The notes below the pieces were generated by a model. It saw nothing but the letters and a program-made list of their open reading frames with translations. It made no database searches and was not told where the DNA came from. This document shows positions 22,670 to 50,121 of a DNA stretch of 56,606 bases, in pieces. The translations under genes were made by a program, and so were the position numbers. This DNA is from Acidimicrobiia bacterium (GTDB lineage: Bacteria; Actinomycetota; Acidimicrobiia; UBA2766), in the NCBI GenBank assembly GCA_020850945.1, contig JADZDR010000062.1:1-56606 (forward strand), in the 5' to 3' direction. Numbering within the stretch: position 1 is the stretch's first letter; every line of letters starts with the position of its first letter.

Positions 22670-22749
22670 TTGCGCGCGACTCGCGCTATTGCGCGCGATT
22701 CGCGCTGCTGCGAGCCCAGTTCGCGCGCAAGATCGCGGTTCGCGCGCAA
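22670..22749. repeat. 80-bp four-site mirror repeat, copy A
   Basis: Two direct TTGCGCGCGA units (22670-22679, 22689-22698) are followed by two inverted TCGCGCGCAA units (22721-22730, 22740-22749). Spacing is 9, 22 and 9 nt, giving 80 bp in all and a potential ~29-bp imperfect stem with a 22-nt loop. It begins 12 nt after the stop of the carboxylase epsilon gene (minus strand). Copies B (40713-40792) and C (50042-50121) have the same layout. Confidence 0.95.
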
Positions 22750-22761
22750 GTTGTCGGGGGA

Positions 22762-23037
22762 TCAGTCAAGGACGCGGCGCCAGCTCCGCCCGTGCGGCTC
22801 GCCGGGCCAGCGTTGCAGGAGGGGTTGCCAGCCGAGCGCATGCAGGCGACCCTGCAACGCCCACTCGTCGGCTGCCGGCAGCACGCGCGACCCTGCAGCC
22901 TCTGCCTCGCGCACGACGAGCTCGACGGTGACGGCGAGAGCGGCGGCTTCCTCGTCTGTGGGGCGGCCACCCCGCACCACGCGAAAACCCGGCTGGGTGG
23001 CAGAGTCCGCGTCGGTGTGCTCGTCCGCGTCCGTCAC
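22762..23037 (-). CDS. Acyl-CoA carboxylase epsilon subunit
   Basis: 91 residues from a GTG overlapping the beta-subunit stop (GTGA). The acidic N-terminus is followed by [19 protein letters not shown], the hallmark of the actinobacterial carboxylase epsilon family, and a Trp-rich C-terminus. In actinobacteria this small subunit bridges the biotinylated alpha chain and the carboxyltransferase beta chain of acetyl-/propionyl-CoA carboxylases and raises activity. Assignment rests on the motif plus the overlap with the beta gene. The biotin-carrying alpha subunit is not in the window. Confidence 0.88.
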
Positions 23038-24686
23038 AGCGGGATGTTCCCGTGCTTGCGCCGCGGCGTCTCGGCGCGCTTCGTGGCGAGCATGCGCAAC
23101 GCCTCGTTCAGCCGCCTGCGCGTCTCCGAGGGACGGATCACCTCGTCGACGAGGCCGCGCTCGGCCGCCTTGTAGGGCGTGCAGTACTCGTCCGTGTACT
23201 CGACGATGAGCTCCTCGCGGCGCCGTTGCGGATCGGGTGCCGCTTCGATCTCGCGACGGTTGATGATGTTCACGGCGCCGCTCGCCCCCATGACCGCAAG
23301 TTCCGCCGTCGGCCACGCCATCGAGATGTCCGTGCCGATCGAACGCGCGTCGAGGACGACGTAGGCGCCGCCGTAGCTCTTGCGCACTATGACCTGGAGA
23401 CGGGGCACTGTCGCCTCGCAATAGGCGAAGAGGAGCTTGGCGCCGTGGCGGATGATCCCGCGGTACTCCTGGTCCGTGCCGGGCAGGAAGCCGGGGACGT
23501 CGACGAACGTGACGAGGGGGATGTTGAACGCGTCACACGTGCGCACGAACCGGGCGCCCTTCTCCGAGGCGTCGATGTCGAGCGTTCCCGCTAGGTGCAT
23601 CGGCTGGTTGCCGACGATCCCGACGGCTCTCCCGTCCATGCGGGCGAAACCCGTGACCAGGTTGGGGGCGAAGAGGGGTGCCACCTCGAAGAACTCGGCG
23701 TCGTCGACGACGTGGCGGATCAGCTCCTTGATGTCGTACGGCTGGTTCGAGGAGACGGGCAGGAACGAGTCGAGCTCGTCGACGAGGCGGAACGGGTCGT
23801 CGTCGGTCGGGACGACAGGTGACTCCTCGGCGTTGTTCTGGGGCAGGAAGGAGAGCAGGTAGCGCACGTCCTCGAGGCAGTGCTGCTCGTCGTCGGCGAC
23901 GAACTGGGCAACGCCGGACTTGCTCGCATGTGTGAGGGCACCGCCGAGCTCCTCCTGCGTGACCTCCTCGCCCGTGACCGTCTTGATCACGTCCGGGCCT
24001 GTGATGAACATGTGCGACGTGCCCTTGACCATGAAGATGAAGTCGGTCATGGCCGGGGAGTAGACGGCACCTCCGGCACATGGGCCCATGATCACCGAGA
24101 TCTGCGGGATCACCCCGGAGGACTGCACATTCCGATAGAAGATCTCGCCGTAGCTGGAGAGGCTCACGACCCCCTCCTGGATGCGGGCACCCCCGGAGTC
24201 GTTGAGACCCACGATCGGAGCGCCGACGGACGCCGCGATCTCCATCACCTTGCAGATCTTGTCGCTCATGACCTCGCCGAGGCTGCCGCCGAAGACGGTG
24301 AAGTCCTGGGCGAACACGAAGACCTTGCGGCCGTCGATGAGTCCCCATCCCGTGACCACGGCGTCACCGACCGGGAACTTCGTGTTCGCGTCGGTGCCCG
24401 TCCCCTGGTGGCGGGCGAGGGAGTCGATCTCGATGAAGGACCCCTCGTCGAGCAGGATCTCGATGCGCTCGCGCGCCGTGAGCTTGCCCCGCGCGTGCTG
24501 CTTGTCGACCGCCGTCTTGCTCGCGTGGTGCTCCGCCTCATAGCGGCGCTCTTCGAGATCGGCGGACTTGTCCGCGGGCGTGCCGAGACGCGGCTGTGGC
24601 GGGGCCTCAGCCCCGCCACCGGGTCCACTCCCGTGAGCCGTGTCGTTCTGTGTGTGGACAGGAGCCTCGCCGTTTGCTTCCGTCAT
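23034..24686 (-). CDS. Acyl-CoA (propionyl/acetyl-CoA) carboxylase beta subunit
   Basis: 550 residues from the ATG at 24686; a longer open frame upstream is not coding-like. The first ~45 residues are a low-complexity extension, then the carboxyltransferase fold: [46 protein letters not shown] (oxyanion/biotin site), [13 protein letters not shown], and in the second half [14 protein letters not shown] and [11 protein letters not shown]. It transfers CO2 from carboxybiotin to acyl-CoA, giving malonyl- or methylmalonyl-CoA. The epsilon gene overlaps its 3' end. A TAGCCT hexamer 8 nt upstream hints at a leaderless start. Confidence 0.94.
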
Positions 24687-24717
24687 GGGGGGCGAGGCTA
24701 CCCGACGTGCCTCGGTA

Positions 24718-25155
24718 TCAACCGATCGTGAAGCCGCCCGCGTCGAGCTGGCCGACGATGGCTCCCGGGTCCGATCCCCAGACGAAGGACCCGCCGGTCG
24801 CGAGCTGGATCGAGACCGGGCTGATCTCGACGTACTTCGGACCGCCGACCACGATCTGGATACCCGAGAGGGCGAACTCGTAGCCCTCGTCGGGGCTGTG
24901 GACGAGTCCGATCGTGAGGCCGCCCGCACCGTTCACCTTCACACCGCCGAAGCAGACGATGTCGAGGAGACACGTGAGCTTCACGTCGATGTCACCCGTG
25001 ACGGGGTTGCCGTCCTGGGTCCCTGTGTAGGTGCCGCTGCCCGTGACCTCCTTGGATTCGAAGTCGAGGGCGCCGGCACGTGGTGCGACGGCGAGAAGAG
25101 CGGCTGCGATCAGGGCGACGAGCGCGCCACGGCGCAGAAGGCGGGTTCGTTTCAT
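24718..25155 (-). CDS. Small secreted protein of unknown function
   Basis: 145 residues with a classic signal peptide (basic start, hydrophobic core, cleavage near PRAGALDF). The ATG has GGGAGGAC upstream. The mature part looks beta-rich and contains two cysteines ([12 protein letters not shown]) that could form a disulphide, then a repeated [10 protein letters not shown] / VSIQLATGG pattern. No family recognised. It has its own good promoter (25217-25246), so it is likely monocistronic. Confidence 0.75.
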
Positions 25156-25216
25156 CTTGTCCTCCCAGTCTGATGATGAACCGTGACGACCGGTGCCGAC
25201 GCCACGTGTACGGAGG

Positions 25217-25246
25217 AGTGTAAGCAGGCCGATCCCGACATGTAAA
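25217..25246 (-). promoter_or_regulatory. Promoter of the small secreted protein gene
   Basis: On the minus strand a -35 TTTACA (25241-25246) and -10 TACACT (25217-25222) are separated by 18 nt. The predicted start gives a leader of roughly 55 nt carrying the GGGAGG ribosome site. One of the clearest sigma-70-type promoters in the window. Confidence 0.55.
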
Positions 25247-25307
25247 TCCCACGCGAGGGGATTCGTGGACGTGCGGGATCGAGGTGGGACTGTCGGTGGG
25301 GGTGTCC

Positions 25308-26681
25308 TCACGCCTCGCGCTGGAACAGGGTGATCGCGTCGTAGTGCCTCTCGCGCATCGCGGCGTCGGTCACGCCCCGACCGGCCTCCGCCGCGAGCAC
25401 GCGGATGCCGATCTTGCCTTCGGCCATGTTCCTGTGGACCTGCCACGCAGCCTCGTCGACCTCCTCGAGCGGGAAGCTGCGGGACATGATCGGGTGGACC
25501 ATCCCCTTGCAGGCGAGGCGGTTCGCCTCCCATGCCTCCTTGTAGTTGGCGAAATGGGATCCGATGATCCGCTTCAGGTTCATCCAGAGGTAGCGATTGT
25601 CGTACTCGTGCATGAAGCCGCTCGTGGATGCGCACGTCACGATCGTGCCGCCACGCTTGGCCACGAACACCGACGCGCCGAAGGTCTGGCGGCCCGGGTG
25701 CTCGTAGACGATGTCGGGATCCTCGCCGTCCGTGAGCTCACGCACGGCCTTGCCGAGTGCGACCCACGCCTTGGTGTCCTGCTTCGTGCCGGCGTCGTCC
25801 CACACGGACGGAAGGTCGCGTCGGTTGACGACGCGTTCGCAGCCGAGGGCCTTCGCGAGGCCGACCCGCTTCTCCGAGCTCACGACCCCGACGGGGATGC
25901 CGCCGCCGTTGCGGACGTACTGGACGGCGAAGCCGCCCAGCCCGCCGGTCGCGCCCCAGATGAGGACCACGTCCCCTTGCTTCATGCGGGCACCGTTCGC
26001 GCCCACGAGCATCCGGTACGCGGTGCAGGAGACGAGGGGCATCGACGCCGCCTCCTCCCACGTGAGATGACGGGGCTTGGGCATGAGTTGGTTGGCCTTT
26101 ACGAGGGCGACGTCGGCGAGGCCGCCGAAGTTCGTCTCGAAACCCCAGATCCCCTCCCCCGTGTCCATCATCGAGTCGTCGTGACCCTCGGGGCCCTCAA
26201 GCGTGACGTCGTTGCAGTGGACGACCACCCTGTCACCCGGCTTCCACTTCGTGACGCCGGGTCCGACCCGCAACACGACGGCGGCAGCGTCGGACCCCAT
26301 GATGTGGTACGGGAGGTCGTGGCGGGCGGCGAGGGCACTGGCACGGCCTCGCCTCTCCAGGAAGTTGAACGTGGGAAGGGGCTCGAAGATCGACGTCCAC
26401 ACCGTGTTGAAGTTGATGGCGGATGCCATGACCGCGACGAGAGCCTCGTTCGGCCCCAGCTCGGGGAGGGGCACCTCGTCGATGTGGACGCTCTTGCGGG
26501 GGTCCTTCTCCTCGCTCGGGATCCCCTCGAACATGCCGATCTCGTCCTTGTGCACCGTGGCGGCACGCATCGACTCGGGCAGGGGCAGGGAGGCGAACGT
26601 CTCGTCCGAAGCGTCCGATTCGATCGCGTCGACGATGTCGCGAAGCTCACTCGCGATGCGGGGCGAGACGTCTTCGGTCAT
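25308..26681 (-). CDS. ccr: Crotonyl-CoA carboxylase/reductase
   Basis: 457 residues; ATG with GGGAGG 6 nt upstream. It belongs to the MDR superfamily with an NADPH loop IWGATGGLGGFA (~241-252). The four CO2-binding residues known from the Kitasatospora enzyme (Asn81, Phe170, Glu171, His365) all fall at a constant +11 offset here: Asn92, Phe181 and Glu182 in WGFETNFGG, and His376 in GSHFANY. This supports true carboxylating activity rather than a plain crotonyl-CoA reductase. It turns crotonyl-CoA, CO2 and NADPH into ethylmalonyl-CoA, for the ethylmalonyl-CoA pathway or for polyketide extender units. The mutase and epimerase of that pathway are not here. Confidence 0.93.
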   Translation of the reverse strand: MTEDVSPRIASELRDIVDAIESDASDETFASLPLPESMRAATVHKDEIGMFEGIPSEEKDPRKSVHIDEVPLPELGPNEALVAVMASAINFNTVWTSIFEPLPTFNFLERRGRASALAARHDLPYHIMGSDAAAVVLRVGPGVTKWKPGDRVVVHCNDVTLEGPEGHDDSMMDTGEGIWGFETNFGGLADVALVKANQLMPKPRHLTWEEAASMPLVSCTAYRMLVGANGARMKQGDVVLIWGATGGLGGFAVQYVRNGGGIPVGVVSSEKRVGLAKALGCERVVNRRDLPSVWDDAGTKQDTKAWVALGKAVRELTDGEDPDIVYEHPGRQTFGASVFVAKRGGTIVTCASTSGFMHEYDNRYLWMNLKRIIGSHFANYKEAWEANRLACKGMVHPIMSRSFPLEEVDEAAWQVHRNMAEGKIGIRVLAAEAGRGVTDAAMRERHYDAITLFQREA

Positions 26682-26768
26682 GAGAACCTCCCGGGCGCTT
26701 GAAACGTGGCCGTCCATCGTAGGAGAGCGGCCCCTGGAGTGCAGCACGCCTGGCGCCGCCTCCGAATG

Positions 26769-27596
26769 TCAGGACAGAAGGCGGTCGCGAAAGAGGGCGA
26801 GGACGCGGTCGAGCGCATCCCGGGTCGGGTGACCGGGCACGTCCTGCAGATCTTCTGTGAGGACGGAGTGGGCACCCTTCCGATTGCCGTACGGGTTCCC
26901 CGGCGACGAGTCGATCTCGACGGCGACGAAGTTGTCGCCGAGCTCCTCGCGCAGGCGCGCGAACCGCTCCGGGGGGACGGCCGGGTCATTCGTGAAGCGG
27001 AGCCCGAGCACGCACAGCTCGGGATCGGCCCCACACCGCGCGCGGACACGAGCCAGGTCCGGCGCGTCGAGCCCGAGGTCCCGCTTCGCCTTGCCCGACA
27101 GGGGGAGGGGGAGGGACGGCTGCGACAGGACAGGGGCGATCACCGCTTCGTCGACCATCATCGCGAGGGCGAATCCACCCGTGAGGCACATGCCGACCAC
27201 GCCCACGCCCGGGCCGCCACAACGATCGTGCTCGTGCCGGGCGAGCGCCTTGAGCCACTCGACGACGGGACTCGTCCGCCCCGACGCGAGCAGAGTGAAC
27301 TCCCGCGACACGCACGCCCACGACATCGTCTGGAGGATGTAGCCGGCGGACGGAGCCTTCCCCACACGGCCGAAGAGGTGCGGTACTACGGCCGTCGCCC
27401 CGACATCGACCACGCGCCGGGCGAAATCCGCGACGCGTGGCGTGATGCCGGGCACCTCGCTCACGACGAGCACCGCCGGCCCCTCCCCCTTGCGCAAGAC
27501 CGTCCGCGTCTTCCCGCCCTCGCCGTCGGGATACGTGAACGAATCGCGGGCGAAGTCCGCCAGCGTGTCTTCCTCCTGAGACTCCGAGCGCCCCAC
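26769..27596 (-). CDS. Dienelactone hydrolase-like protein
   Basis: 275 residues from a GTG at 27596 with AGAGAGGGGGA upstream. The nucleophile motif GMCLTGGFA has a cysteine as in dienelactone hydrolases, and the C-terminal GNRKGAHSVL supplies the histidine. The fold is alpha/beta hydrolase with VLVVSEVPGI at the oxyanion strand. The true substrate is open; many such proteins are not part of chloroaromatic pathways, and no such pathway is nearby. It is transcribed away from dtd. Confidence 0.82.
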   Translation of the reverse strand: MGRSESQEEDTLADFARDSFTYPDGEGGKTRTVLRKGEGPAVLVVSEVPGITPRVADFARRVVDVGATAVVPHLFGRVGKAPSAGYILQTMSWACVSREFTLLASGRTSPVVEWLKALARHEHDRCGGPGVGVVGMCLTGGFALAMMVDEAVIAPVLSQPSLPLPLSGKAKRDLGLDAPDLARVRARCGADPELCVLGLRFTNDPAVPPERFARLREELGDNFVAVEIDSSPGNPYGNRKGAHSVLTEDLQDVPGHPTRDALDRVLALFRDRLLS

Positions 27597-27697
27597 GGGT
27601 CCCCCTCTCTGCTTCCACCGTGTGGGCAAGGAGCCTATTCGAGACACGCCGACGCACAAGGGGGCCCCCTTCGTCGCAGAGCCGGTAACGTGCCGGG

Positions 27698-28162
27698 ATG
27701 CGAGTCGTGTTGCAGCGCGTGCGGCGGGCCGCCGTCTCCGTCGGCGGCGAGGTCGTGGGGAGCATCGGCACCGGCCTCGTCGCCTTGGTCGGCGTCGCGG
27801 GCGGTGACGTCACCACCGACGCGGCTGCTCTCGCCACGAAGACGGCCGACATGCGCCTCTTCCCGAATCCTGGTGCACCCGACGACAGACCTATGGACGT
27901 CCCGCTCGCAGCAGTGCAGGGCGCGGTCCTCGCCGTGAGCCAGTTCACCCTCTGCGCCGACACCTCGCGGGGCCGCCGCCCGAGCTTCACGCGAGCCGCG
28001 TCTCCGGACGCAGCACGTCCGATCTTCGACGCCTACTGCGCGACGCTGCAGGACCGCGACATCCGGGTGGAGACCGGGGTGTTCGGTGCGCACATGGAGG
28101 TCGACATCCTCAACGACGGACCGGTGACGATCGTTCTCGACTCGGAGGTGCATCGCGGATAG
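27698..28162 (+). CDS. dtd: D-aminoacyl-tRNA deacylase
   Basis: 154 residues, full length. Starts MRVVLQRV; the two active-site motifs SQFTLCADT and NDGPVTI are present. The enzyme removes D-amino acids (and glycine from tRNA-Ala) from mischarged tRNA. TAACGT ends 6 nt before the ATG and there is no ribosome site, so the mRNA is probably leaderless. The last 53 nt overlap, on the opposite strand, the end of the small membrane protein gene. Confidence 0.95.
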   Translation: MRVVLQRVRRAAVSVGGEVVGSIGTGLVALVGVAGGDVTTDAAALATKTADMRLFPNPGAPDDRPMDVPLAAVQGAVLAVSQFTLCADTSRGRRPSFTRAASPDAARPIFDAYCATLQDRDIRVETGVFGAHMEVDILNDGPVTIVLDSEVHRG

Positions 28163-28382
28163 GCGCCCGTGAGGCCGTCACGAACCTCACCACGAGCACG
28201 ACGGATGAGAGGTAGGCCGTGACGGTGAGGACGGCCAGAAGGAGGAACCAGAGGACGGCAGCCGCAGGCGCGTCTTCGACAAGGGCGACTCCCGCCCAGA
28301 TCCCCAAACCTGCCACGGCCGCGGCCACGATCATGCCGATCGTCCCCGACAGCATCTGTGCCTTCTCCTGTCGCACATCCAT
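28110..28382 (-). CDS. Small two-helix membrane protein
   Basis: 90 residues from the ATG at 28382, or 81 from an ATG at 28355 that has AGGAG ~10 nt upstream. Two hydrophobic helices (~11-35 and ~42-68) and a basic, Arg-rich C-terminus. No recognised family. The 3' end overlaps dtd convergently by 53 nt. If it is not real, the gap from dtd to the S9 peptidase gene (28163-28542) would hold no gene. Confidence 0.55.
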   Translation of the reverse strand: MDVRQEKAQMLSGTIGMIVAAAVAGLGIWAGVALVEDAPAAAVLWFLLLAVLTVTAYLSSVVLVVRFVTASRAPIRDAPPSRERSSPVRR

Positions 28383-28542
28383 CCCCGAGTTCGGTCCCGA
28401 GCCACACGGGACATTGGGGATCGACTACCCCCGAGTGCCCAGCCCGTGGACGGGCAGAACACCAGCGTCGGTTTTGTCCATTTTATCCGACCAACAGTAT
28501 TGACAGGGGAGGCCCCCTCATGTCAACGACCCTCCGCCCGTC

Positions 28543-30675: not shown

Positions 30676-30752
30676 GGGGTGCCGAGGATATTCGGAACGT
30701 CCCACCCCCAGCGCACCCACGAGTTGGGCTCGCCACCTCGGCCGTCGGCCCG

Positions 30753-37588: not shown

Positions 37589-37930
<342 letters not shown>

Positions 37931-37986
37931 TCAATCCTCTCCCTCTCGGACGTGCAGCCACACGCCCGTCGCAACACCGTGGTCGT

Positions 37987-39461: not shown

Positions 39462-39467
39462 TAGACT
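39462..39467 (+). promoter_or_regulatory. Candidate -10 box for the thiolase gene
   Basis: TAGACT within CTAGACTCG, in the divergent region between amtB and the thiolase gene, 23 nt before the ATG and followed by AGGAGG. The same nonamer precedes the 3-hydroxybutyryl-CoA dehydrogenase gene at 13629-13637. Confidence 0.4.
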
Positions 39468-39490
39468 CGGATCGCAGGAGGTTTCCCATC

Positions 39491-40678
39491 ATGTCCAAGA
39501 CCGTCATCGTCAGCGGCGCGCGCACACCGATCGGCAAGATGCAGGGTGCCCTCGCCGGATTCTCCGCTTCAGACCTGGGCGGCATCGCCATCAAGGCGGC
39601 TCTCGAACGCGCCGGCCTGGACGGCGAACAGGTGGACTACGTGATCCTCGGCCAGGTGCTCCAGGCAGGCCAGGGCCAGAACCCGGCCCGCCCCGCTGCC
39701 GTCGGAGGCGGCATCCCGATGACCGTCCCCTCGATCACCGTCAACAAGGTCTGCCTCTCGGGCATCAACGCTCTCGCCCTGGCCGACCAGCTGATCCGTC
39801 TCGGAGAGTGTGACGTGGTCGTCGCCGGCGGCATGGAGTCGATGACGAACGCCCCGTATCTCCTCAAGAAGGCACGTGCCGGCTACCGGTACGGGAACGA
39901 CACGATCTACGACTCCCTGGCCGACGACGGCCTCTACTGCACGTTCGACCAGAAGGCGATGGGACACGCCACGGACGAGTACAACTCGGACTGGTCGTTC
40001 GGCCGCGCCGAACAGGACGAGTTCTCCGCTCGCAGCCACGAGCTCGCTGCCGCCGCCCAGAAGAACGGGGCCTTCGAGGACGAGATCGTCCCCGTGGAGG
40101 TGCCCCAGCGCAAGGGTGATCCCGTGATCTTCGACACGGACGAGGGCGTGCGTCCGGGAACCACGGCCGAGACCCTCGGCAAGCTCCCGCCTGCGTTCAT
40201 CCGGGACGGCGGCACGATAACGGCCGGGAACGCCTCGCAGATCTCCGATGGGGCATGTGCCCTGGTGCTCGTGAGCGAAGACAAGGCGAAGGAGCTCGGC
40301 CTCCCAATCCTGGGCGAGATCGTGGCGCACGGCCAGATCGCGGGCGCAGGACCCGCGCTGCACTCGATGCCGGCCGCGGCGATCACGAAGGCTCTCGAGA
40401 AGGCCGGCCTGTCGATCGACGACATCGACCTCTTCGAGGTGAACGAAGCGTTCGCCGCCGTCTCGCTCGCCGCGCTCGAGGAGCTCGGCGTGCCCGCCGA
40501 GAAGCTCAACGTCAACGGCGGCGCTGTGGCGCTCGGCCACCCCATCGGCATGAGCGGCGCCCGCATCGTCCTCCACGGCCTCTTCGAACAGCGCCGCCGC
40601 GGCGGGGGGCTCGTCGCCGCCGGCATCTGCGGCGGGGGTGGCCAGGGTGACGCCCTGATCGTTCGCGCCCTCCCCTGA
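39491..40678 (+). CDS. Acetyl-CoA C-acetyltransferase (thiolase)
   Basis: 395 residues; ATG with AGGAGG 7 nt upstream. Nucleophile Cys88 in NKVCLSG; the other active-site motifs are NEAFA, GGAVALGHPIGMSGAR and CGGGGQGDA. The size and motifs fit biosynthetic thiolases (AtoB/PhaA), which condense two acetyl-CoA, or the reverse in beta-oxidation. With the 3-hydroxybutyryl-CoA dehydrogenase and Ccr elsewhere in the window it could form a C4 route; only the crotonase step is missing. A copy of the 80-bp repeat lies between its stop and that of recR. Confidence 0.94.
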   Translation: MSKTVIVSGARTPIGKMQGALAGFSASDLGGIAIKAALERAGLDGEQVDYVILGQVLQAGQGQNPARPAAVGGGIPMTVPSITVNKVCLSGINALALADQLIRLGECDVVVAGGMESMTNAPYLLKKARAGYRYGNDTIYDSLADDGLYCTFDQKAMGHATDEYNSDWSFGRAEQDEFSARSHELAAAAQKNGAFEDEIVPVEVPQRKGDPVIFDTDEGVRPGTTAETLGKLPPAFIRDGGTITAGNASQISDGACALVLVSEDKAKELGLPILGEIVAHGQIAGAGPALHSMPAAAITKALEKAGLSIDDIDLFEVNEAFAAVSLAALEELGVPAEKLNVNGGAVALGHPIGMSGARIVLHGLFEQRRRGGGLVAAGICGGGGQGDALIVRALP

Positions 40679-40712
40679 GGCCTCGGCCGAGAGGGTGGGC
40701 CCTCCCCCCTTC

Positions 40713-40792
40713 TTGCGCGCGAAACGCGTTGTTGCGCGCGAAGCGCACTTGAGCGAGCGTGATTCGCGCGCAAGTTCGCGGTTCGCGCGCAA
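40713..40792. repeat. 80-bp four-site mirror repeat, copy B
   Basis: TTGCGCGCGA units at 40713-40722 and 40732-40741, inverted TCGCGCGCAA units at 40764-40773 and 40783-40792; spacing 9, 22 and 9 nt as in copy A. It lies between the convergent thiolase and recR genes and begins 12 nt after the recR stop, the same distance as copy A from its gene. A G/C box (GGGTGGGCCC) and TTC flank the left end. Confidence 0.95.
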
Positions 40793-40804
40793 GTTCGAGG
40801 CGGT

Positions 40805-41422
40805 TCAGAGGGAGTGACGCCCGGCGAGGGCGCGTCCGAGCGTGACCTCATCTGCGTATTCGAGGTCGCCGCCGACCGGCAGACCCGACGCGATGCGGCT
40901 CACGGCGAGATCGCTGCGGTCGAGGGTCTGGAGCTCCCGGAGGAGGTAGGCGGCGGTCGCCTCGCCGTCGACGGTCGGGTTCGTGCAGAGGATGACCTCC
41001 TGCACCTCGTACGTGCCGTTGGGCTCGACGGCGGTCACGCGCTCCATCAACTCACGCACGCGGAGACGCTCGGGTGTGATCCCGTCGAGTGGGCTGAGTG
41101 CTCCGCCGAGGACGTGGTAGAGACCGTTGAACTCGTGTGTGCGTTCGAGCGCGACGACGTCGCGCGCCTCCTCGACCACGCAGATGGCAGAAGGGTCCCG
41201 CTTCGGGTTCGCACAGATGCGGCAGAGCTCACCCGCGGCCACGTTGTGGCAGCGCGTGCAGAAACCCACCTTCTCGAGGGCGAGGAGCGCGTGCGCGAAG
41301 CGCTCGATGTCGACCCGCTCCACACCGAGGAGGTGGAACACGAGCCGCTGCGCCGACTTCGGTCCGATGCCGGGTAGGCGGCCGAACTCGTCGATCAGAT
41401 CCTGAACCGGGCCCTCGTACAC
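40805..41422 (-). CDS. recR: Recombination protein RecR
   Basis: 205 residues from a GTG with GGAGG upstream; the frame stays open upstream without coding signal. Contains the helix-hairpin-helix ([17 protein letters not shown]), the four-cysteine zinc finger [16 protein letters not shown], and the Toprim motif [14 protein letters not shown]. RecR works with RecO/RecF to load RecA at gaps. It is third in a dnaX-ybaB-recR cluster, an order widely conserved in bacteria. Confidence 0.96.
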
Positions 41423-41441
41423 TTCCGACCTCCGGTCCGTA

Positions 41442-41888
41442 TCAGGAGCCCATGAGGCCACCGAGATCCAGCCCGAGGCCGGCACCGAGCCCGCCGAGAT
41501 CGAGGCCGCCCGTGATCGAGCCCATGCGCTCCTCAGCCGTCTGCTTGGCAAGGCGCAGAGCCTCGTTCACACCGGCGACGATCAGGTCCTGGAGCATGTC
41601 GACGTCGTCGGGGTCGACCGCGTCGGGATCGATCTCGACGGCCACGACCTCCTGGTTGCAGGTCACTACGACCTTGACGATGCCACCCCCCACGGTCGCC
41701 TCGACCGTCTCGTCGCCGAGGGCCTCCTGCGTCGCCTGCATGTCGGCCTGCATCTGCTGCACCTGGGCGAGCATGTCACCCATGTCGGGCATGCCGCCCT
41801 TGGCCTTGGGTTGCATCGCCCCGCCCGCGGCCGTGCGTCGCTGTGTGCTGCCTCGCGGCTTGGGTTTCCTCGGCTTGGACTTGGCCAT
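41442..41888 (-). CDS. YbaB/EbfC nucleoid-associated protein
   Basis: 148 residues. The YbaB core starts near [16 protein letters not shown] and contains [21 protein letters not shown]. Compared with the ~105-residue E. coli protein it has an extra Lys/Arg/Pro-rich N-terminal ~30 residues and a Gly/Leu-rich tail ([18 protein letters not shown]). It binds DNA non-specifically as a dimer. Sits between dnaX and recR on one transcript, 19 nt before the recR start. Confidence 0.93.
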
Positions 41889-41929
41889 GTCCCGAGGATA
41901 GCCACCGGTGCCGAAACGCCCCCGGCCAC

Positions 41930-43717: not shown

Positions 43718-43754
43718 TCCGCCTCCCGCCGGGACTCCGCGCAACAGCGGAGAA

Positions 43755-44027
43755 AAGGCGACCGTGCACCCGCCGTCGATCCTCGCTCCCCGACCGCCAC
43801 CGCAGTCCCCACTCGGGTCAGGCGCTCCTGCGGCACACGGTACGACCGCTTAGGGCTGCTTCCTCCCGGATCTGACCCGGTTCGCAGCTTCCCGTTGCGC
43901 AGGACCCGACCTTCAACGTGATCGCCACGGCTCAGCATCGGTTCGTTGTGGACCTCGGGCGGGAATTCAGCCCCTCATGAGCGGATTGGGGGTACAGGGA
44001 ACCGCTAACTCCCCGCCTAGCACGGTC
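43755..44027 (-). ncRNA. ffs: Signal recognition particle RNA, large type with Alu domain
   Basis: The S-domain core is unmistakable on the minus strand at 43816-43911: GGGTCAGATCCGGGAGGAAG followed by CAGCCCTAAGCGGTC, closed by CCTGCG/CGCAGG and GGTC/GACC. Upstream, CCGTGCTAGGCGGGGAG, TAGCGGTTCCCTGTACC and GAATTCCCGCC match the bacterial Alu domain with its TGTA loop, so the RNA is the long form. The 5' end is set from a TACACT -10 at 44034-44039; the 3' end is set at a TTTT run near 43755 and is approximate. It lies upstream of dnaX, as in many actinobacteria. Confidence 0.87.
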
Positions 44028-44033
44028 GAACGC

Positions 44034-44039
44034 AGTGTA
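44034..44039 (-). promoter_or_regulatory. Candidate -10 box of the SRP RNA gene
   Basis: TACACT on the minus strand, 6-8 nt before the first conserved bases (CCGTGC) of the SRP RNA. No good -35 was seen. Confidence 0.45.
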
Positions 44040-44086
44040 CCCACACGCCGCGGACAGGCACCCGGCCCGATCCGCACCCGCCTGCC

Positions 44087-44434
44087 TCAGGACCAGCCGA
44101 GCTCGTCGAGGCGGTCGTCGTCGATGCCGAAGTGATGGGCGATCTCGTGCAGCACGGTCTCGACGACGAGCTCGCGCAGGGCTTCGACGTCGTCCGCGGT
44201 CTCGAGATGCGGCTCACGGTAGATGAGAACCTGGTCGGGCATCTCGAGACCGTCGCCGTAGGACATCGCACCCCGGGCCGTGAGGTCGACACCCGTGTAG
44301 AGCCCGAGCAGCCCCGGCTCGTCTCCCGCCCGCGTTTCGACGCGGACGACGACGTTGTCGATGAGCTCCGCCAGATGCGGCGGTATCGTATCCAACGCAT
44401 CGACGACGAGCTCCTCGAAATCGTCGTCACTCAT
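44087..44434 (-). CDS. Zincin-like metallopeptidase family protein
   Basis: 115 residues from the ATG at 44434; an ATG at 44446 would add four residues and start only 5 nt beyond the tRNA-Ser 3' end. The zinc motif is HEIAHHFGID (His96, Glu97, His100; Asp105), preceded by DQVLIYREPHLE as in the small bacterial zincin family (DUF1025-like). Family members are probable metallopeptidases of unknown substrate. It reads away from the tRNA and toward the SRP RNA. Confidence 0.85.
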   Translation of the reverse strand: MSDDDFEELVVDALDTIPPHLAELIDNVVVRVETRAGDEPGLLGLYTGVDLTARGAMSYGDGLEMPDQVLIYREPHLETADDVEALRELVVETVLHEIAHHFGIDDDRLDELGWS

Positions 44435-44450
44435 GTGTACGGGCATGGAG

Positions 44451-44537
44451 CGGAGGGAGGGGGATTTGAACCCCCGAGGCGTTGCCGCCAACACGCTTTC
44501 CAGGCGTGCGCCATAGGCCGGACTAGGCGATCCCTCC
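44451..44537 (-). tRNA. tRNA-Ser(GGA)
   Basis: 87 nt including discriminator G. Acceptor GGAGGGA/TCCCTCC, anticodon stem CACGC/GCGTG around CTGGAAA (anticodon GGA), a long variable arm as expected for tRNA-Ser, and T arm GGGGG-TTCAAAT-CCCCC. CCA is not encoded. The 5' end is directly bordered by the 31-bp palindromic repeats. Confidence 0.94.
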
Positions 44538-44542
44538 ATCCT

Positions 44543-44615
44543 GACGTGATCGCAAGCGATCACTTCCTACGCTGACGTGATCGCAAGCGATCACTTCCTA
44601 CGCTGACGTGATCGC
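44543..44615. repeat. 31-bp tandem repeats with an 18-bp palindrome
   Basis: Two full 31-bp copies (44543-44573 and 44574-44604) and a third partial copy begin TGACGTGATCGC. Each full copy contains the perfect palindrome GTGATCGCAAGCGATCAC (44546-44563, 44577-44594); the third gives a half-site GTGATCGC (44608-44615). The block fills the gap between tRNA-Ser(GGA) on the minus strand and tadA on the plus strand, exactly where both promoters must lie. Confidence 0.95.
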
Positions 44616-44635
44616 AGGGCAGGAAGGACAATCAT

Positions 44636-45160
44636 ATGGTGCCCCAACGGGTCTGGCCTCCATCGGACTCGGACTCCCCGGACGACTCCGCCGGGTTCAC
44701 GCCCGAGATCGTAGACAGGGCGATGGGTGCCGCACTCGACGCTGCCCGTCGCGCGGCGCACGCGGGCGACGTCCCCGTCGGGGCAGCGGTGTTCACGCGG
44801 GATGCGGTCGTGGCCGTCGCCGGGAACACGCGGGAGCAGCACAGCGATCCCACCGCCCACGCCGAGATCACCGCCCTGCGGGAGGCGGCCGCGACCGCAG
44901 GCGGCTGGCGCCTCGAGGACTGTGGCATGGCCGTGACGCTCGAACCGTGCCCGATGTGTGCAGGCGCCCTCGTGAACGCCCGGCTGCGTCTTCTCGTCTA
45001 CGCCACCTCGGACCCGAAGGCGGGTGCGGCCGGCAGCCTCTACAACATCTGCCAGGACCGTCGCCTCAACCACCGGCTCGTCGTCTCGCCGGGATTTCGG
45101 GAGGAGGAGGCGGCGCGCCTCCTGTCATCCTTCTTCCTGCCCCGCCGTGGCCGCAGGTAG
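44636..45160 (+). CDS. tadA: tRNA adenosine(34) deaminase
   Basis: 174 residues; ATG with AGGAAGGA upstream. Zinc and catalytic motifs are HAE at 75-77 and PCPMC (Cys105, Cys108), as in TadA. The protein deaminates A34 of tRNA-Arg(ACG) to inosine. It has an N-terminal extension of ~20 acidic/Ser-rich residues. Generic cytosine/guanine deaminases share these motifs, but the spacing and the GSLYNICQDRRLNHR tail favour TadA. Confidence 0.92.
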   Translation: MVPQRVWPPSDSDSPDDSAGFTPEIVDRAMGAALDAARRAAHAGDVPVGAAVFTRDAVVAVAGNTREQHSDPTAHAEITALREAAATAGGWRLEDCGMAVTLEPCPMCAGALVNARLRLLVYATSDPKAGAAGSLYNICQDRRLNHRLVVSPGFREEEAARLLSSFFLPRRGRR

Positions 45161-45171
45161 GTGGCGCCAGG

Positions 45172-45354
45172 GTGAGTGTCCACAGCGACGGTAGTTCGAC
45201 GCTGAAGTCGCCCCAGAGCACAGCCCTCTGTTCCCACCACCACCGCCTCGTCCACGAAACCGGCCACCAAATCGAAGGCGACGCCGACCACACCCTCACC
45301 TTCAAACGCCCCGACAGCAAGACCATCGACGTCCGACCCCCACCACCCGTGTGA
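45172..45354 (+). pseudogene. Remnant of an HNH endonuclease (DUF222-type) gene
   Basis: An open stretch of 60 codons ending in a stop encodes ALCSHHHRLVHETGHQI followed by LTFKRPDSK, matching the last part of HNH nucleases often found behind DUF222 domains in actinobacteria. The upstream HNH half is degraded and the N-terminal domain is absent. It directly follows tadA and ends ~90 nt before a tRNA gene. A GTG at 45172 could in theory start a short peptide, but a decayed mobile-type gene is more likely. Confidence 0.65.
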
Positions 45355-45446
45355 GCGACGCCGCCTGCCCCCTGTGTTGCCTCTGACCAGCCCGCCCGAC
45401 CCCCACCGGTCTGGATTTCCGTGATCGAGTACTAGAGTCCGCCGAC

Positions 45447-45533
45447 GGAGGAGTCGCATAGTGGACTAGTGCGCGGCACTCGAAATGCCGTGGGCCCGCG
45501 AGGGCCCCGAGGGTTCAAATCCCTCCTCCTCCG
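45447..45533 (+). tRNA. tRNA-Ser(CGA)
   Basis: 87 nt: acceptor GGAGGAG/CTCCTCC, anticodon loop CTCGAAA (anticodon CGA) on a GGCA/TGCC stem, long variable arm, T arm GAGGG-TTCAAAT-CCCTC, discriminator G. Unlike the other two tRNAs here it is followed by a genomic CCA (45534-45536). Confidence 0.95.
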
Positions 45534-45546
45534 CCAAATCGCCGGC

Positions 45547-46626
45547 TCAGGGAACCCTCTCGAGCTCGAGGCCGCATTCGGCCGCGAACACGACGGGATC
45601 GCCCACGACCTCCGACGGCGCGCGGAAGCCACCCGCCAGTGACGCTCCGTCCCGGGCGAGACGGGTCACGATGCGAGTGTTGAGGATCGCCGTCGTGGCG
45701 TAGATGTCGGTCCCGGCGACGAGGGTCCGCGCTGTCTTGCCGGTGGGCGAAGTCGCTTCGACGAGGACCCCGAACGAGGTGCGCGCGCGGGCGTCGGCCC
45801 TCGGCCCCTCGGGTACCCGCTCCAGGAGTCCGCCCAGGGCACGCTGCACGGCGCCCGTCCCCAGGACCGGCCCGCCGATTCGGGAGGCCGGTCCCGCGAG
45901 CCGCGTGAGGGGCCCGGGCAGGACCGCCCACGTGCGGATCGCGGAGGCGGGAACGTGGTTGGCGATCTGCACGGCGTCTCCACCTCCGTAGGAGACCGCC
46001 CGTACGACACCCATCGGAGGAGGGAACGAGAAGGTGCGCGTGTGGACGGCGACGGCCTCGTCGGTCCACACCCCACCCTCGAACACCGGCAGGGGGCGTG
46101 CCGCTGCTTCGAGCGCGGACCGCATCGTGCCCCGTGTCGGGGCCATGTGGCGCACGAGGAGCACTGTGTCGATCCGTTCGACCGCGCCGAGCGACCGGGC
46201 CGCGAGGGCGGCACCCAGATCGTGGGGCACGTAGTCGAAGCCGGCAGCCGGCACGATCGGGGCGGCGCCTTCAGGGAACCGAGTGCGCACCTCGTGCATG
46301 AACTCCGGCTCACCTGTCGTGTCGCAGTAGGGCACGCCGAGAGCGTGGCACGCCTCGACGAGAGGCATGCCTATACGGGCGAAAGGACCCGCCGCCGACG
46401 TCACGGCCGTGGCGTCCCCGACAAGTGACTCCAGGGCTCCGGGGTCGTGCAGCGAGGCCACGCGAACCTCGGTCTTGACGGCGGGAGATGCGGCGGCGAG
46501 CTCCCGGGCGAGGCCGTCGAGCTTGGCCTCGCTTCGACCCGCGATCACGAACGGTTCGCCGATCCGGGCGAGCTCCGCGGCCACGAGACGACCCGTGAAG
46601 CCGGTGGCACCGTAGAGGACGATCAT
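45547..46626 (-). CDS. Saccharopine dehydrogenase-like / trans-acting enoyl reductase family protein
   Basis: 359 residues. The NAD(P)-binding start VLYGATGFTGRLVAAELA is clear, then FVIAGRSEAKL and AAGPFARIGMPLVEAC, the pattern of the mycobacterial trans-acting enoyl reductase and other saccharopine-dehydrogenase-like proteins. GEPEFMHEV and GFDYVPHDLGAALA also fit. Mycobacterial relatives reduce polyketide-derived lipids; that role cannot be transferred here, as no polyketide synthase is near. It is divergent from putA across 66 nt. Confidence 0.82.
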   Translation of the reverse strand: MIVLYGATGFTGRLVAAELARIGEPFVIAGRSEAKLDGLARELAAASPAVKTEVRVASLHDPGALESLVGDATAVTSAAGPFARIGMPLVEACHALGVPYCDTTGEPEFMHEVRTRFPEGAAPIVPAAGFDYVPHDLGAALAARSLGAVERIDTVLLVRHMAPTRGTMRSALEAAARPLPVFEGGVWTDEAVAVHTRTFSFPPPMGVVRAVSYGGGDAVQIANHVPASAIRTWAVLPGPLTRLAGPASRIGGPVLGTGAVQRALGGLLERVPEGPRADARARTSFGVLVEATSPTGKTARTLVAGTDIYATTAILNTRIVTRLARDGASLAGGFRAPSEVVGDPVVFAAECGLELERVP

Positions 46627-46692
46627 CGAGACGGCATCCTACGGCATCGCCTCGCGCAATGCCCCTCGCCGGCCTGCGCATAGTCTCCGGGC

Positions 46693-49600
46693 GTGACGGC
46701 CCTGGCCCGTACCGAGATCCCGGCCGGGATCCCCGAGGACTCCGTCCGGCTTGCCGGTGAGCTCCTGCGGCGTGCCCGCGAGCTCGAAACCCGAACCGAG
46801 CGCCACCATCGCTCGCGGTTCGCGGCGCTCACCGCCGACGAGGAGGGCACGCAGCTCATGACACTCCTGCTCGACCGCGCGTTCCGCCCACGTCGTCCTG
46901 AGCGTGTGGCCGGCGAGATCACCCGAACCCTGTCGGGCGGCATCCCGTCCGGACTCCGCACGACGGACAGGCTTCTCCTCGGAGGATTCGTTCGCGCCTG
47001 GCGCGTGTGGCCGCGAGCCGCTGTCGGCCTCTTCGTGCGGTACCTGCACAACACGGTCTCCGACATGGTTGTCGACACGAGCCCCCGCGGCCTCCGTCCG
47101 TACCTGCGCGCGCGGCGCGACAGGGGTGTCACCGCCAACGTGAACGTCGTGGGTGAGGCGATCCTCGGGCGCGAGGATGCCGCCCTGCGCCTCGACCGAT
47201 ACCTCGCGGCTGTGGGCGACCCCCTCGTCCCGGCCGTGGCCGTGAAGCTCTCGTCGCTCGTGCCTGGCATGACCCCGCTCTCCCAGGCGGAGACCGTGGG
47301 TGCGGCCGTGCCTGCGATCTGCCGCATGCTCGAACGCGACCCGGATGTGCGCGTGACACTCGACATGGAGGCCTATGCGGATCTCGAGCCGACACTCACG
47401 GTATACGAACGGATCCTCGCAGATCCCCGGTACACGACCGGCCGCCTCGGCGTCGCCCTCCAGGCGTACCTGCCCGATTCCCTCGCTGCCCTCGGAGAGC
47501 TCGTCGCGCTCGGCCGGCGGCGTGTGCAGGCGGGGGGTCTCCCCGCCCGTGTCCGTCTCGTGAAGGGTGCGAACCTGAGGGCGGAGGAGTTGGCGGCACG
47601 CCTCGCCGGCTGGCCTCCGGCTCCCTTCCCGTCCAAGGCCGAGACCGATGCCAACATGAAGAGGCTGGTCGCACATGCCCTCGTCGCCGCGATGGAGGGC
47701 AGTCTCGAAGTGGGGGTCGGCTCCCACAACGTCTTCGACATCGCGTTCGCCCTCACGCTCGCCTCCCACCACGGAGTCATGGGCTCACTCACGGTCGAGG
47801 TCCTGCAGGGCATGGCCGAGCCGCTCCTCCGCGCCCTCGCAGAACATCTCGGCGGCTGGTCCGGGCCGGGCGCATCACGCAGTCGCGCCGCGCCTCCCGT
47901 AGTCGTCTATGTGCCCGTGGCCGAACCGGACGAGCTCCTCGCAGCCGTCGCCTATCTCGTGCGCCGCCTCGACGAGAACACGTCACCGGAGAACTTCCTC
48001 AGGCATGCCTTCAGCATGCAGGCAGGCGATACGGCGTGGCAGCACCAGGCCGAGCTCTTCCTTCGGTCGTGCACCGATGCGCGCACGTCGCCGCGCCTCG
48101 GGTCACGCAGGCTCCAGGATCGTACGGTGGAGACCCCAGCGGCCGAGCCGCCGGACGACTCGTTCCTGAACACCCCGGACACGGATTGGACGGTGAGGCG
48201 CAATCGGGAGTGGCTCGGAATGCATCTCCGCGTCGACTCGCCCGACCTTCGTCCCCCGGAGGCGACGCTCGAGGCGGTCGACACGGCGGTGCAACGCGCT
48301 GGAGAGGACAAGGCAGGCTGGTCCGGACTACCGCTCCCCGATCGGGCTGCCGTCCTGCGCGAGGCGGCACGCGAGGTGGAACGGAGGCGCGGCGCGCTCA
48401 TCGCCCTCATGGCACACGAGGGGATGAAGACCCCGGCCGAGGCCGACCCGGAGGTGTCGGAGGCCGTCGACCTCCTCGCCTACTACGCAGGATCGCTCGA
48501 CGACCTCGCCGCCGACGGCCGCCTCTCTCTGACGCCCCGGGGCACGGTTGCCGTACTGCCGCCGTGGAACTTCCCTCTCGCCATCCCTCTCGGAGGCGTC
48601 GCCGCAGCCTTGATCGGGGGGAATCGCGTGATCCTGAAGCCGTCACCGTTCACGGTCCGCACCGCCTCCGCGGGTGTGGACGCACTTCGGGCAGCCGGGG
48701 TCCCTGGCGACGCGCTCACACTCCTCCACGGCGGCGTCGAACCGAGCGCAGCCCTCGCCGCACACGCGGGAGTCGACGCCGTCGTCTTCACGGGAAGCAC
48801 GGCGACAGCGACTCGCATCCTTGCCGCGAACCCGCACACACCGCTGCTCGCCGAGACGGGCGGCAAGAACTCCATCGTCGTGACCGCCGTGGCCGACCGC
48901 GATCTCGCGCTTGCCTCGATCCTGCGCTCCGCATTCGGACATGCCGGGCAGAAGTGCTCTGCGGCATCCCTCGTGGTCGCCGAGGCGGAGGTGTACGACG
49001 ATCCGGACTTCCGGGCGCGCCTCGTGGACGCCGCGGCCACGCTGCGTTGCGGTCCTCCCACCGATCCCGCAACCGACGTACCGCCCCTCGTGACCGGTCC
49101 CAACGCAGCCCTCCAGGGCCTCTACGACCGGCTGCCGCACGGAGAGCGCTGGGCCCTCGCGCCTCGCCGGCTCGGGCCGCGGCACTTCTCACCCGGAGTC
49201 GTCTGGGATGTGCAGGAAGGCTCCCCGACCCATCTCGAGGAGCTCTTCGGCCCCGTCGTCGGTGTCCTGCGCGCGGTCGATCTCCCCGACGCCGTGCGCC
49301 TCCAGAACGCCGGCATCTACGGCCTGACCGCCGGTCTGCAGAGTCTCGACCGCGAGGAGTGGCGCTGGTGGTCCGGCCACGTCCAGGCCGGGAACCTCTA
49401 CGTGAACAGGCCCACGACCGGTGCCGTCGTGTCCCGCCAGCCGTTCGGGGGCTGGCGGCGATCCGGGTTCGGCCCGGGCGGGAAGGCGGGAGGCCCGAAC
49501 TACGCGGCGCAGCTCGTCCATGTCGCGTCGTCGATCCGGAGCGGGGACGCCGGCTACGCGCGGCTCGCGTCCGTGGAACCCCATCGGATCGAAGGCCAGC

Positions 49601-49983
49601 GCAACGTCCTGCGATACGTGCCCGCCCCGGACGTCGTGGTGCGTGTCGAGCCCGGTGATTCGCAGGCGGTGGTGGATGCCCACCTGCGGGCGGCTGCCGC
49701 CGCCGGGTGCGAGGTGACGGTGAGCTCGTACGAGTCGGAACCCGCGGCAGCCTTCGCTGCCGGCCTCGCGGACCGCCCTCCCACGCGCGTGGTGCGGTGT
49801 GGGGCAGCCGACCCCGGTCTCGTGGAGGCGGCGACCAGGACGTGGACGTGGGTTTGCGACGACCCACCCACGCTCACGCCCCGCGACCTGCTCCCCTTCG
49901 TACGCGAGCAGACTGTGTCGATCGACACCCACCGCTACGGCTGGGTCGCGCGCGGCGCCGACCACCTCGACTGGCTCACCTGA
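46693..49983 (+). CDS. putA: Bifunctional proline dehydrogenase / P5C dehydrogenase
   Basis: 1096 residues from a GTG with TAGTCT ending 6 nt upstream, so probably leaderless. The proline dehydrogenase barrel is at ~60-440 (SDMVVDTSPRGLRPYLRAR, VKLSSLVPGM, ARVRLVKGANL) and the aldehyde dehydrogenase at ~500-960, with Glu721 in ETGGKNS and Cys755 in GQKCSAAS. There is no N-terminal DNA-binding helix, so it is not an autoregulator. The C-terminal ~130 residues are an extra domain as in long PutA types. It oxidises proline to glutamate with channelling of the intermediate. A copy of the 80-bp repeat starts 58 nt after its stop. Confidence 0.94.
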   Translation: MTALARTEIPAGIPEDSVRLAGELLRRARELETRTERHHRSRFAALTADEEGTQLMTLLLDRAFRPRRPERVAGEITRTLSGGIPSGLRTTDRLLLGGFVRAWRVWPRAAVGLFVRYLHNTVSDMVVDTSPRGLRPYLRARRDRGVTANVNVVGEAILGREDAALRLDRYLAAVGDPLVPAVAVKLSSLVPGMTPLSQAETVGAAVPAICRMLERDPDVRVTLDMEAYADLEPTLTVYERILADPRYTTGRLGVALQAYLPDSLAALGELVALGRRRVQAGGLPARVRLVKGANLRAEELAARLAGWPPAPFPSKAETDANMKRLVAHALVAAMEGSLEVGVGSHNVFDIAFALTLASHHGVMGSLTVEVLQGMAEPLLRALAEHLGGWSGPGASRSRAAPPVVVYVPVAEPDELLAAVAYLVRRLDENTSPENFLRHAFSMQAGDTAWQHQAELFLRSCTDARTSPRLGSRRLQDRTVETPAAEPPDDSFLNTPDTDWTVRRNREWLGMHLRVDSPDLRPPEATLEAVDTAVQRAGEDKAGWSGLPLPDRAAVLREAAREVERRRGALIALMAHEGMKTPAEADPEVSEAVDLLAYYAGSLDDLAADGRLSLTPRGTVAVLPPWNFPLAIPLGGVAAALIGGNRVILKPSPFTVRTASAGVDALRAAGVPGDALTLLHGGVEPSAALAAHAGVDAVVFTGSTATATRILAANPHTPLLAETGGKNSIVVTAVADRDLALASILRSAFGHAGQKCSAASLVVAEAEVYDDPDFRARLVDAAATLRCGPPTDPATDVPPLVTGPNAALQGLYDRLPHGERWALAPRRLGPRHFSPGVVWDVQEGSPTHLEELFGPVVGVLRAVDLPDAVRLQNAGIYGLTAGLQSLDREEWRWWSGHVQAGNLYVNRPTTGAVVSRQPFGGWRRSGFGPGGKAGGPNYAAQLVHVASSIRSGDAGYARLASVEPHRIEGQRNVLRYVPAPDVVVRVEPGDSQAVVDAHLRAAAAAGCEVTVSSYESEPAAAFAAGLADRPPTRVVRCGAADPGLVEAATRTWTWVCDDPPTLTPRDLLPFVREQTVSIDTHRYGWVARGADHLDWLT

Positions 49984-50041
49984 CCTGGCGTGCGCCGGTC
50001 CCCACCCGCCCGCCCTTCTCCCCGCTCGGAGCGAGCTCAAG

Positions 50042-50121
50042 TTGCGCGCGACTCGCGTTGTTGCGCGCAAGACGCGTCCGTTTGATGTCAGTTCGCGCGC
50101 AAGATGTCAGTTCGCGCGCAA
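50042..50121. repeat. 80-bp four-site mirror repeat, copy C (inverted)
   Basis: TTGCGCGCGA at 50042-50051 and the variant TTGCGCGCAA at 50061-50070, then TCGCGCGCAA at 50093-50102 and 50112-50121; spacing 9, 22 and 9 nt. The G/C box and TTC flank are on the right, so this copy is flipped relative to A and B. It lies between putA and rmuC, downstream of putA, and like A and B its box end points away from the upstream gene. Confidence 0.95.

Follow-up and report, generated by a model that had tools for sequence, protein, structure and literature searches.

A REP/BIME-like family of rigidly spaced inverted repeats between genes of an Acidimicrobiia genome

The DNA analysed here is a 56,606-nucleotide stretch (the window) of contig JADZDR010000062.1, from the Acidimicrobiia bacterium assembly GCA_020850945.1 (Actinomycetota; order UBA2766). 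Three times along its length the same 80-bp arrangement of four near-identical 10-mers, or boxes, occurs with exactly the same spacing, and the question that this raises is what such an element is and what it might do. The answer that we favour, with a probability of about 0.6, is that the three belong to a genome-specific family of repetitive extragenic palindromic (REP) elements, each an inverted REP heterodimer resembling the bacterial interspersed mosaic element BIME-1, whose boxes would be bound by protein and which would act at the ends of transcription units. The family looks like an unusually strict new version of a known class, rather than a REPIN (the inverted REP doublet moved by a RAYT, or REP-associated tyrosine transposase) or the product of hitherto unknown machinery.

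The three cores lie at positions 22670–22749, 40713–40792 and 50042–50121, and in each the boxes are separated by gaps of 9, 22 and 9 nt. Eleven of the twelve 10-mers are identical, just as the original prediction had it, the odd one out being TTGCGCGCAA at 50061–50070. Counted singly and with up to one mismatch, the 10-mer occurs 17 times in the window against a mean of 11.6, and this is not unusual, 17 being reached in 10 of 100 shuffles. It is the arrangement of the boxes, rather than their window-wide count, that is unusual. The term first applied to this arrangement, mirror repeat, has to be replaced by inverted repeat. The 80-bp extent first given is correct for the core, but conservation runs further (~101 bp in total): it starts in a C-tract that lies ~9 bp before the first box and ends in a G-tract ~12 bp after the last, with little beyond. 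The table of flank conservation behind these limits had 36 rows, including six false shifted matches; the C-tract was confirmed on the 29 complete copies described below.

Copies are far more numerous than the three in the window. The host genome (G000; 3.91 Mb in 97 contigs, estimated to be 98.5% complete) gave 31 matches to a two-box pattern and none to a reversed control; with two mismatches allowed, the figures were 58 and 1. A covariance model built from 22 copies, a check called for at the outset, found its own members by construction (E down to 2e-24) and recovered seven complete copies outside the training set (E 1.3e-23 to 9.4e-19) as well as one partial copy. The family in G000 thus stands at 29 complete elements and one truncated on contig C27. 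A relaxed scan, allowing up to 12 box mismatches, gave 36 matches of which six were false shifted copies; these were left out of all counts of location and identity. The truncated element (L166 4016–4095) lies 52 bp downstream of a gene for a PemK/MazF-like toxin (L166 3652–3963).

The constancy of spacing seen in the window extends to the whole genome, the 9/22/9 gaps being exact in 29 of 29 complete copies. When the gap between the two boxes of a pair was allowed to vary from 5 to 14 nt, all 28 matches had 9 nt. Box-9-box units, or arms, with up to three mismatches number 59 in G000, and these resolve into 29 pairs, each offset by 51 bp, together with the arm on C27; no separated or orphan arm was found at that threshold. 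The absence of any indel from the 29 complete copies is striking because the inner 22 nt average only 52% identity.

What, then, is held constant? An arm is 29 bp long and comprises a box (TTGCGCGCGA), a 9-nt loop with CGCG and a second box (TTGCGCGCGA), and the two arms are inverted to each other around the 22-nt centre, making the element an inverted pair of REP-like units. Mean pairwise identity across the 29 copies is 0.94 in the boxes, 0.67 in the 9-nt loops, 0.52 in the inner 22 nt and 0.28–0.29 outside, from which it follows that the boxes are kept whilst the rest drifts. The inner 22 nt do differ between copies, as first claimed, but are not featureless, as CG or CGCG is conserved where they adjoin the boxes. 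Their low identity also upholds, for most copies, the view that the family does not stem from recent duplication. Three closely related pairs of copies stand out by inner-region identity. In one of these (L162/L163) the elements are near-identical and the flanks differ beyond ~14 nt, which suggests, as far as sequence comparison goes, that copies can disperse; in the other two, judged by eye, neighbouring coding sequence appears to be common to both members.

The box is nearly its own reverse complement, yet it is asymmetric and nearly invariant. As a perfect palindrome would fold better, this suggests sequence-specific recognition, and because diverged copies keep boxes and spacing while loops and centre drift, the boxes are probably still being read in most copies. 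Such recognition need have no tie to REP/BIME elements: the element could be an array that presents four helically phased sites to a single dedicated DNA-binding protein (a nucleoid, condensin or topology factor), with the hairpin a by-product of the near-palindromic site. Nearly invariant boxes that are asymmetric rather than perfect palindromes, the lack of indels in 29 copies and of orphan arms within three mismatches, loops whose covariation does not favour pairing and the occurrence of elements between divergent genes as well are all in keeping with an array. We nevertheless regard it as rather unlikely, given the enrichment of elements between convergent genes and the presence at gene ends, in this genome and in a sister genome, of palindromes of different sequence, which suggests that palindromy and location matter and not one fixed sequence.

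Near self-complementarity lets the boxes of an arm pair with each other, and eight or more box–box pairs form in the predicted folds of 53 of 58 arms; mean folding energy is −14.0 kcal/mol, whereas mononucleotide shuffles of the arms average −8.1 (sd 2.5). Boxes of opposite arms can pair as well, and for elements 1 and 2 of the window a single long hairpin is predicted on either strand (z −4.5 to −6.9). The fold of element 3 is weaker (z −2.6 and −1.8). According to these predictions, the whole element has two alternative folds, a pair of small hairpins and a single hairpin of 80 bp. A mini-hairpin within each 19-bp unit, also considered, would involve columns that hardly vary.

Location provides further evidence. 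Genes were taken from a simple codon-usage caller, which is crude and in its first run missed one ORF neighbouring an element. None of the 30 elements (the partial one included) lies within a called gene; 14 are found between convergent, 12 between tandem and four between divergent genes. As background we used 400 kb, made up of 20 element-free stretches of four contigs, in which 198 intergenic regions of at least 30 bp comprised 22 convergent, 128 tandem and 48 divergent. The convergent excess (14/30 vs 22/198) has a Fisher P of 1.3e-5, or 6e-4 without the length cut. For the 26 elements that have a neighbouring gene 3′ end, the median distance to the nearest is 27 bp, with 22 within 60 bp and the farthest at 220; for the 16 that have a flanking 5′ end, the median is 90.5 bp. 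This preference for gene 3′ ends suggests a role at the ends of transcription units. The three elements of the window, with their arms and neighbours, are as follows.

22658–22761, no strand assigned: element 1 whole, including its C-tract and G-tract flanks; limits approximate, core 22670–22749
22670–22698, plus strand: T-loop arm of element 1 (box-9-box), predicted to form a 29-nt hairpin
22721–22749, minus strand: element 1 arm of C-loop type
21542–22633, minus strand: ATP-dependent DNA ligase gene (Pfam PF01068), 5′ end toward element 1
22762–23421, minus strand: 219-aa ORF, 3′ end 12 bp from the core of element 1; without a Pfam match, missed in the first run of the gene caller
40703–40804, no strand assigned: element 2 whole; limits approximate, core 40713–40792, between convergent thiolase and recR genes
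40713–40741, plus strand: element 2 arm with A at loop position 12
40764–40792, minus strand: element 2 arm of C-loop type
39491–40678, plus strand: thiolase gene, 3′ end 34 bp from the core of element 2
40805–41551, minus strand: recR, 3′ end 12 bp from the core of element 2
50030–50131, no strand assigned: element 3 whole, the lowest-scoring of the three; limits approximate, core 50042–50121, box 2 is TTGCGCGCAA
50042–50070, plus strand: element 3 arm of T-loop type
50093–50121, minus strand: element 3 arm with C at loop position 12 and a degenerate loop, ACTGACATC
46693–49983, plus strand: proline dehydrogenase/aldehyde dehydrogenase gene, 3′ end 58 bp from the core of element 3
50197–51294, plus strand: rmuC, start 75 bp from the core of element 3

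The window also holds a large bacterial signal recognition particle RNA (43762–44025) and three tRNA genes (3095–3169, 44451–44537 and 45447–45533). The product of recR places the organism in Actinomycetota, its best matches having 62–63% identity.

A preference for gene 3′ ends is equally what would be expected of an ordinary transcription terminator working in both directions, or of a hairpin at RNA 3′ ends, that has multiplied through the copying of good terminators. Elements 1 and 2 are very stable on both strands (z as above), and at the orthologous convergent site of the sister-genus genome, G002, a different hairpin is found, as this explanation would have it. Terminators, however, need neither a fixed sequence nor a fixed spacing, and the stem here is followed by a G-tract instead of the U-tract of an intrinsic terminator. 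Add to this the poorer folding of element 3, loop positions that pair less than in shuffled data and three divergent locations at which both neighbours have Pfam matches, and a terminator pure and simple becomes unlikely. Both this and the phased array overlap with the BIME-like reading, and the odds attached to the three do not sum to one.

The loops reveal a further property: the arms of one element are never alike. At loop position 12 they differ in 29 of 29 copies. With the T-type arm put first, this position is T, G or A (22, 4 and 3 copies) in that arm and C or A (25 and 4) in the other; such an ordering sorts on position 12 itself, and the evidence therefore lies in permutation tests and not in these column counts. 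In a test that is free of orientation, arms of one element agree at 5.45 of nine loop positions, fewer than the 6.03 at which randomly paired arms agree (P 1e-4). Watson–Crick pairs between loops number 158 of 261 in the 29 copies, oriented as in the 36-row table, where 173.9 are expected, and none of 5,000 permutations was as low; with 22 copies left in arbitrary orientation, none of 500 shuffles gave fewer pairs than the real data. These P values are somewhat optimistic, as the set includes three closely related pairs of copies. Covariation in the loops is thus opposite to what is expected of a selected long hairpin, there being fewer loop pairs than in shuffles because the two arms are unlike.

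A preference for heterodimers is known from REPs, for which PMC3733652 states that there is 'no obvious explanation' and suggests escape from cleavage by SbcCD. By analogy with that suggestion (PMC3733652), unlike arms could protect the present elements from the cleavage of long palindromes. Two other families in G000, to which we return below, offer a contrast. One, with 56 copies, tolerates a perfect or nearly perfect palindrome; in the other, of 47 bp, any deviation of the arms from random is towards greater likeness (P 0.04, from 13 scan matches, two of which are at the mismatch limit and perhaps due to chance). That the same genome tolerates perfect or near-perfect palindromes means that length may be what matters. 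The 29 of 29 unlike arms make a clean, countable case, which can be compared with the two palindromy-tolerant families of the same genome.

How copies spread is a separate issue. It was initially proposed that the elements might be like miniature inverted-repeat transposable elements (MITEs); on such a reading they would be the ends of a non-autonomous transposon, with two transposase sites each and almost nothing left inside. Arms that are polar and unlike would fit, as would the near-identical pair L162/L163 with flanks that differ beyond ~14 nt, and the best of 484 choices of boundary for a 2-nt target duplication yields such a duplication in seven of 29 copies where 2.0 are expected. Target duplications of 4 to 10 nt, on the other hand, are present in no more than two of 29 copies for any of 22 × 22 boundary choices, although old ones may have decayed. 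No separated or orphan arm within three mismatches and no autonomous relative with the same ends was found in G000; diverged copies retain intact boxes; in the other two similar pairs, neighbouring coding sequence looks shared on visual inspection; and there is no plasmid or phage match with element 1 and no viral match to the pattern. MITEs resemble these elements in being short and dispersed with inverted ends and differ from them in the two features that failed here, a convincing target-site duplication and separated or orphan arms, and we consider this origin quite improbable.

Comparison with known REP systems is more rewarding. REPs are palindromic units of 20–40 bp, most of which lie close to gene 3′ ends where the neighbouring genes converge or run in tandem, and their pairs are inverted and often heterodimeric, with spacers mostly of 20–100 bp, as described in PMC3733652. 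The 29-nt arms, 53 of 58 of which fold, are imperfect palindromes of this size; they are dispersed and extragenic (29 complete elements and one partial, none in a called gene), occupy convergent and tandem gene ends (14 and 12, with four divergent) and, in the manner of a BIME, form close pairs of opposite orientation (29 of 29 at an offset of 51 bp). Location and layout, that is, gene 3′ ends and an inverted pair of hairpin arms, therefore back the REP/BIME likeness first suspected. A further trait of BIMEs is the binding of IHF, gyrase or DNA polymerase I. Like the BIME-1 or Y–Z pairs of enterobacteria, the elements consist of two inverted extragenic palindromic units, and in E. coli, too, the units of a pair are unlike (Y and Z2; PMC2817692); they differ from these pairs in that their units share near-self-complementary 10-mers and all spacings are exact, and in having no GTAG tag and no detected Y1 (RAYT-type) transposase.

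The dimers of GTAG and CGTC REPs described in PMC3733652 are close as well: units of 20–40 bp with stems of 6–13 bp and, in some families, loops of 9–15, spacers mostly of 20–100 bp, heterodimers, convergent or tandem locations close to 3′ ends, families that are in some cases species-specific and genomes that in some cases hold several. Set against them, the G000 family has neither tag, its spacer is always 22 bp where theirs vary (PMC3733652) and its arms differ in 29 of 29 copies. The claim that no described family has this geometry can be kept for the exact family, which nothing contradicts, but the general geometry has been described for REP heterodimers (PMC3733652). REP predictions for Actinomycetota, among them Acidimicrobium ferrooxidans, are tabulated in RepRanger (PMC12306157). 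At the foot of the G000 arms, the outer trinucleotide is mostly TTC or AAC, and the inner one is varied, with CG. Integron attC sites are likewise imperfect palindromes with mismatches at gene 3′ ends; what sets the G000 elements apart from them is that their outer trinucleotides, TTC or AAC, occur in mixed combinations.

A number of observations weigh against the REP/BIME-like reading. At 29 complete copies the family is small, REPs usually exceeding 100 per genome (PMC2817692). Inspection of column counts disclosed neither a GTAG nor a CGTC tag at the arm feet, and a search of G000 for Y1_Tnp (PF01797), the original check for a REP-associated transposase, gave no match whilst being positive in five of 14 control genomes. 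Compensatory change in the paired boxes was seen in none of 21 pairs (22 copies), so the hairpins remain predicted structures. As to location, the flanking genes diverge at four of 30 elements, and at three of these four both neighbours have Pfam matches; depletion from divergent regions is not significant against background regions of at least 30 bp (P 0.14; at 100 bp and above, P 0.013); and in the 11 complete tandem cases the element, which is polar, has no preferred orientation (6 vs 5). Finally, de novo scans for inverted 11-mer arms at three or more spots found none in 146 kb of G001, a genome of the same genus, and only runs of N, with no such family, in 365 kb of G003, a further genome of the order.

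Two of these observations tell against a RAYT-mobilised REPIN in the strict sense. The layout, an inverted doublet of palindromic units, is that of a REPIN, but with no Y1_Tnp match, hence no RAYT-type transposase found in G000, and no GTAG tag, the elements failed on the features tested, and we hold this version to be highly improbable. Absence of a dedicated transposase is apparently also a property of CGTC REPs (PMC3733652).

Is the family, then, confined to its host? The order was sampled by G000 and three other genomes (three genera in all), and the expectation that relatives would carry copies was not borne out, with none in the three others, which are also those of the genus and family. 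Neither were elements found, at up to one mismatch, in 395 other genomes of a phylum sample that overlaps the class sample. In the latter, a covariance search with stricter filters and nine candidates scored per genome returned weak matches only, in nine of 394 other genomes (E 1e-5 to 8e-4); the sites examined were mostly single hairpins, with repeated units at a few (G114, G270 and G004). A tag-plus-stem pattern matched six of 295 other class genomes, four of them of one genus, and these six have palindromes of 50–52 nt that start with GTTCTNGCGCG and end with CGCGCNAGAAC (L218–L223, L225, L226). Both kinds of class-wide match are judged to be analogous and not homologous. There was no match to the exact pattern in viral contigs, no blastn match of element 1 to plasmids or phages and nothing above the Rfam gathering score at the elements, sub-threshold Rfam matches being mostly to miRNA hairpins (the best in the window at 28.3 bits, against a gathering score of 90). 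Among the papers listed by literature searches with the 10-mers, with the box words of all families and on the topic, none was on the G000 family; those on the topic dealt with REPs in general.

The junction between thiolase and recR, where element 2 resides, allows a direct comparison. In G001 the orthologous junction holds other DNA and no element, hence it is not a clean empty site, whilst in G002 the orthologous slot is taken by a different hairpin, which proves to be one copy of that genome's own family (CCAAACGCGGG-N28-CCCGCGTTTGG). Spacing in this family is fixed: 15 exact copies have a constant 24-nt centre though 10–40 was allowed, and in the stretches read, some of which were chosen for holding copies, 36 copies are at one spacing and one each at two others. 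Many copies are flanked by C- and G-rich stretches (L302, L308, L310, L311, L312, L314, L316–L319, L270–L279), and often they form tandem pairs 63–65 bp apart. Here too the inner arms are unlike (P 0.0004; 13 distinct copies, two nearly identical), and of 16 distances to gene 3′ ends measured in 12 arrays, 15 are 1–29 bp.

G000 itself has two further families. The first is the palindrome CTGGGTACCTGAGCGGCGATATATCGCCGCTCAGGTACCCAG, of which 56 copies lie within three mismatches of a 36-nt core, 44 of them exact. It is absent from the window and from the three related genomes, and in the stretches read it is found near gene 3′ ends (six convergent, five tandem, one divergent and two at stretch edges). 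The second, ACGTGGGCGTA-N25-TACGCCCACGT, has 11 copies within four mismatches at this spacing in the stretches read, as opposed to one or two at each of 13 other spacings, and often occurs as tandem pairs 61–62 bp apart. Examples of each are as follows.

L171 2391–2432, L175 5004–5047, L166 6357–6402 and L182 7896–7937: copies of CTGGGTACCTGAGCGGCGATATATCGCCGCTCAGGTACCCAG
L180 7552 and 7613, L256 13746 and 13807, L267 3691 and 3752, L269 5505 and 5567, and others: copies of ACGTGGGCGTA-N25-TACGCCCACGT

A wider generalisation, which we offer tentatively and think rather doubtful, is that fixed-length palindromes across the order might be lineage-specific marks of gene ends read by a dedicated protein, with words specific to the genus (in two of the three genera, those of G000 and G002), with spacing held to the base pair and with some families keeping their arms unlike and never forming a perfect palindrome.

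For the G000 family the REP/BIME-like reading suggests the following. Each 29-bp arm would be a REP-like unit, its boxes able to pair within the arm or with the boxes of the other arm; in most copies the boxes would be held by a sequence-specific DNA- or RNA-binding protein; and the element, acting at the ends of transcription units, might restrict read-through, shield the 3′ ends of RNAs or release supercoiling where genes converge. All three roles have been reported or proposed for the REP/BIME elements of enterobacteria. The G000 family gives a deep actinobacterial order, sampled here by four genomes, a REP-like family that has neither published tag nor a detectable RAYT, and it thus bears on how REP-like repeats exist without a RAYT transposase.

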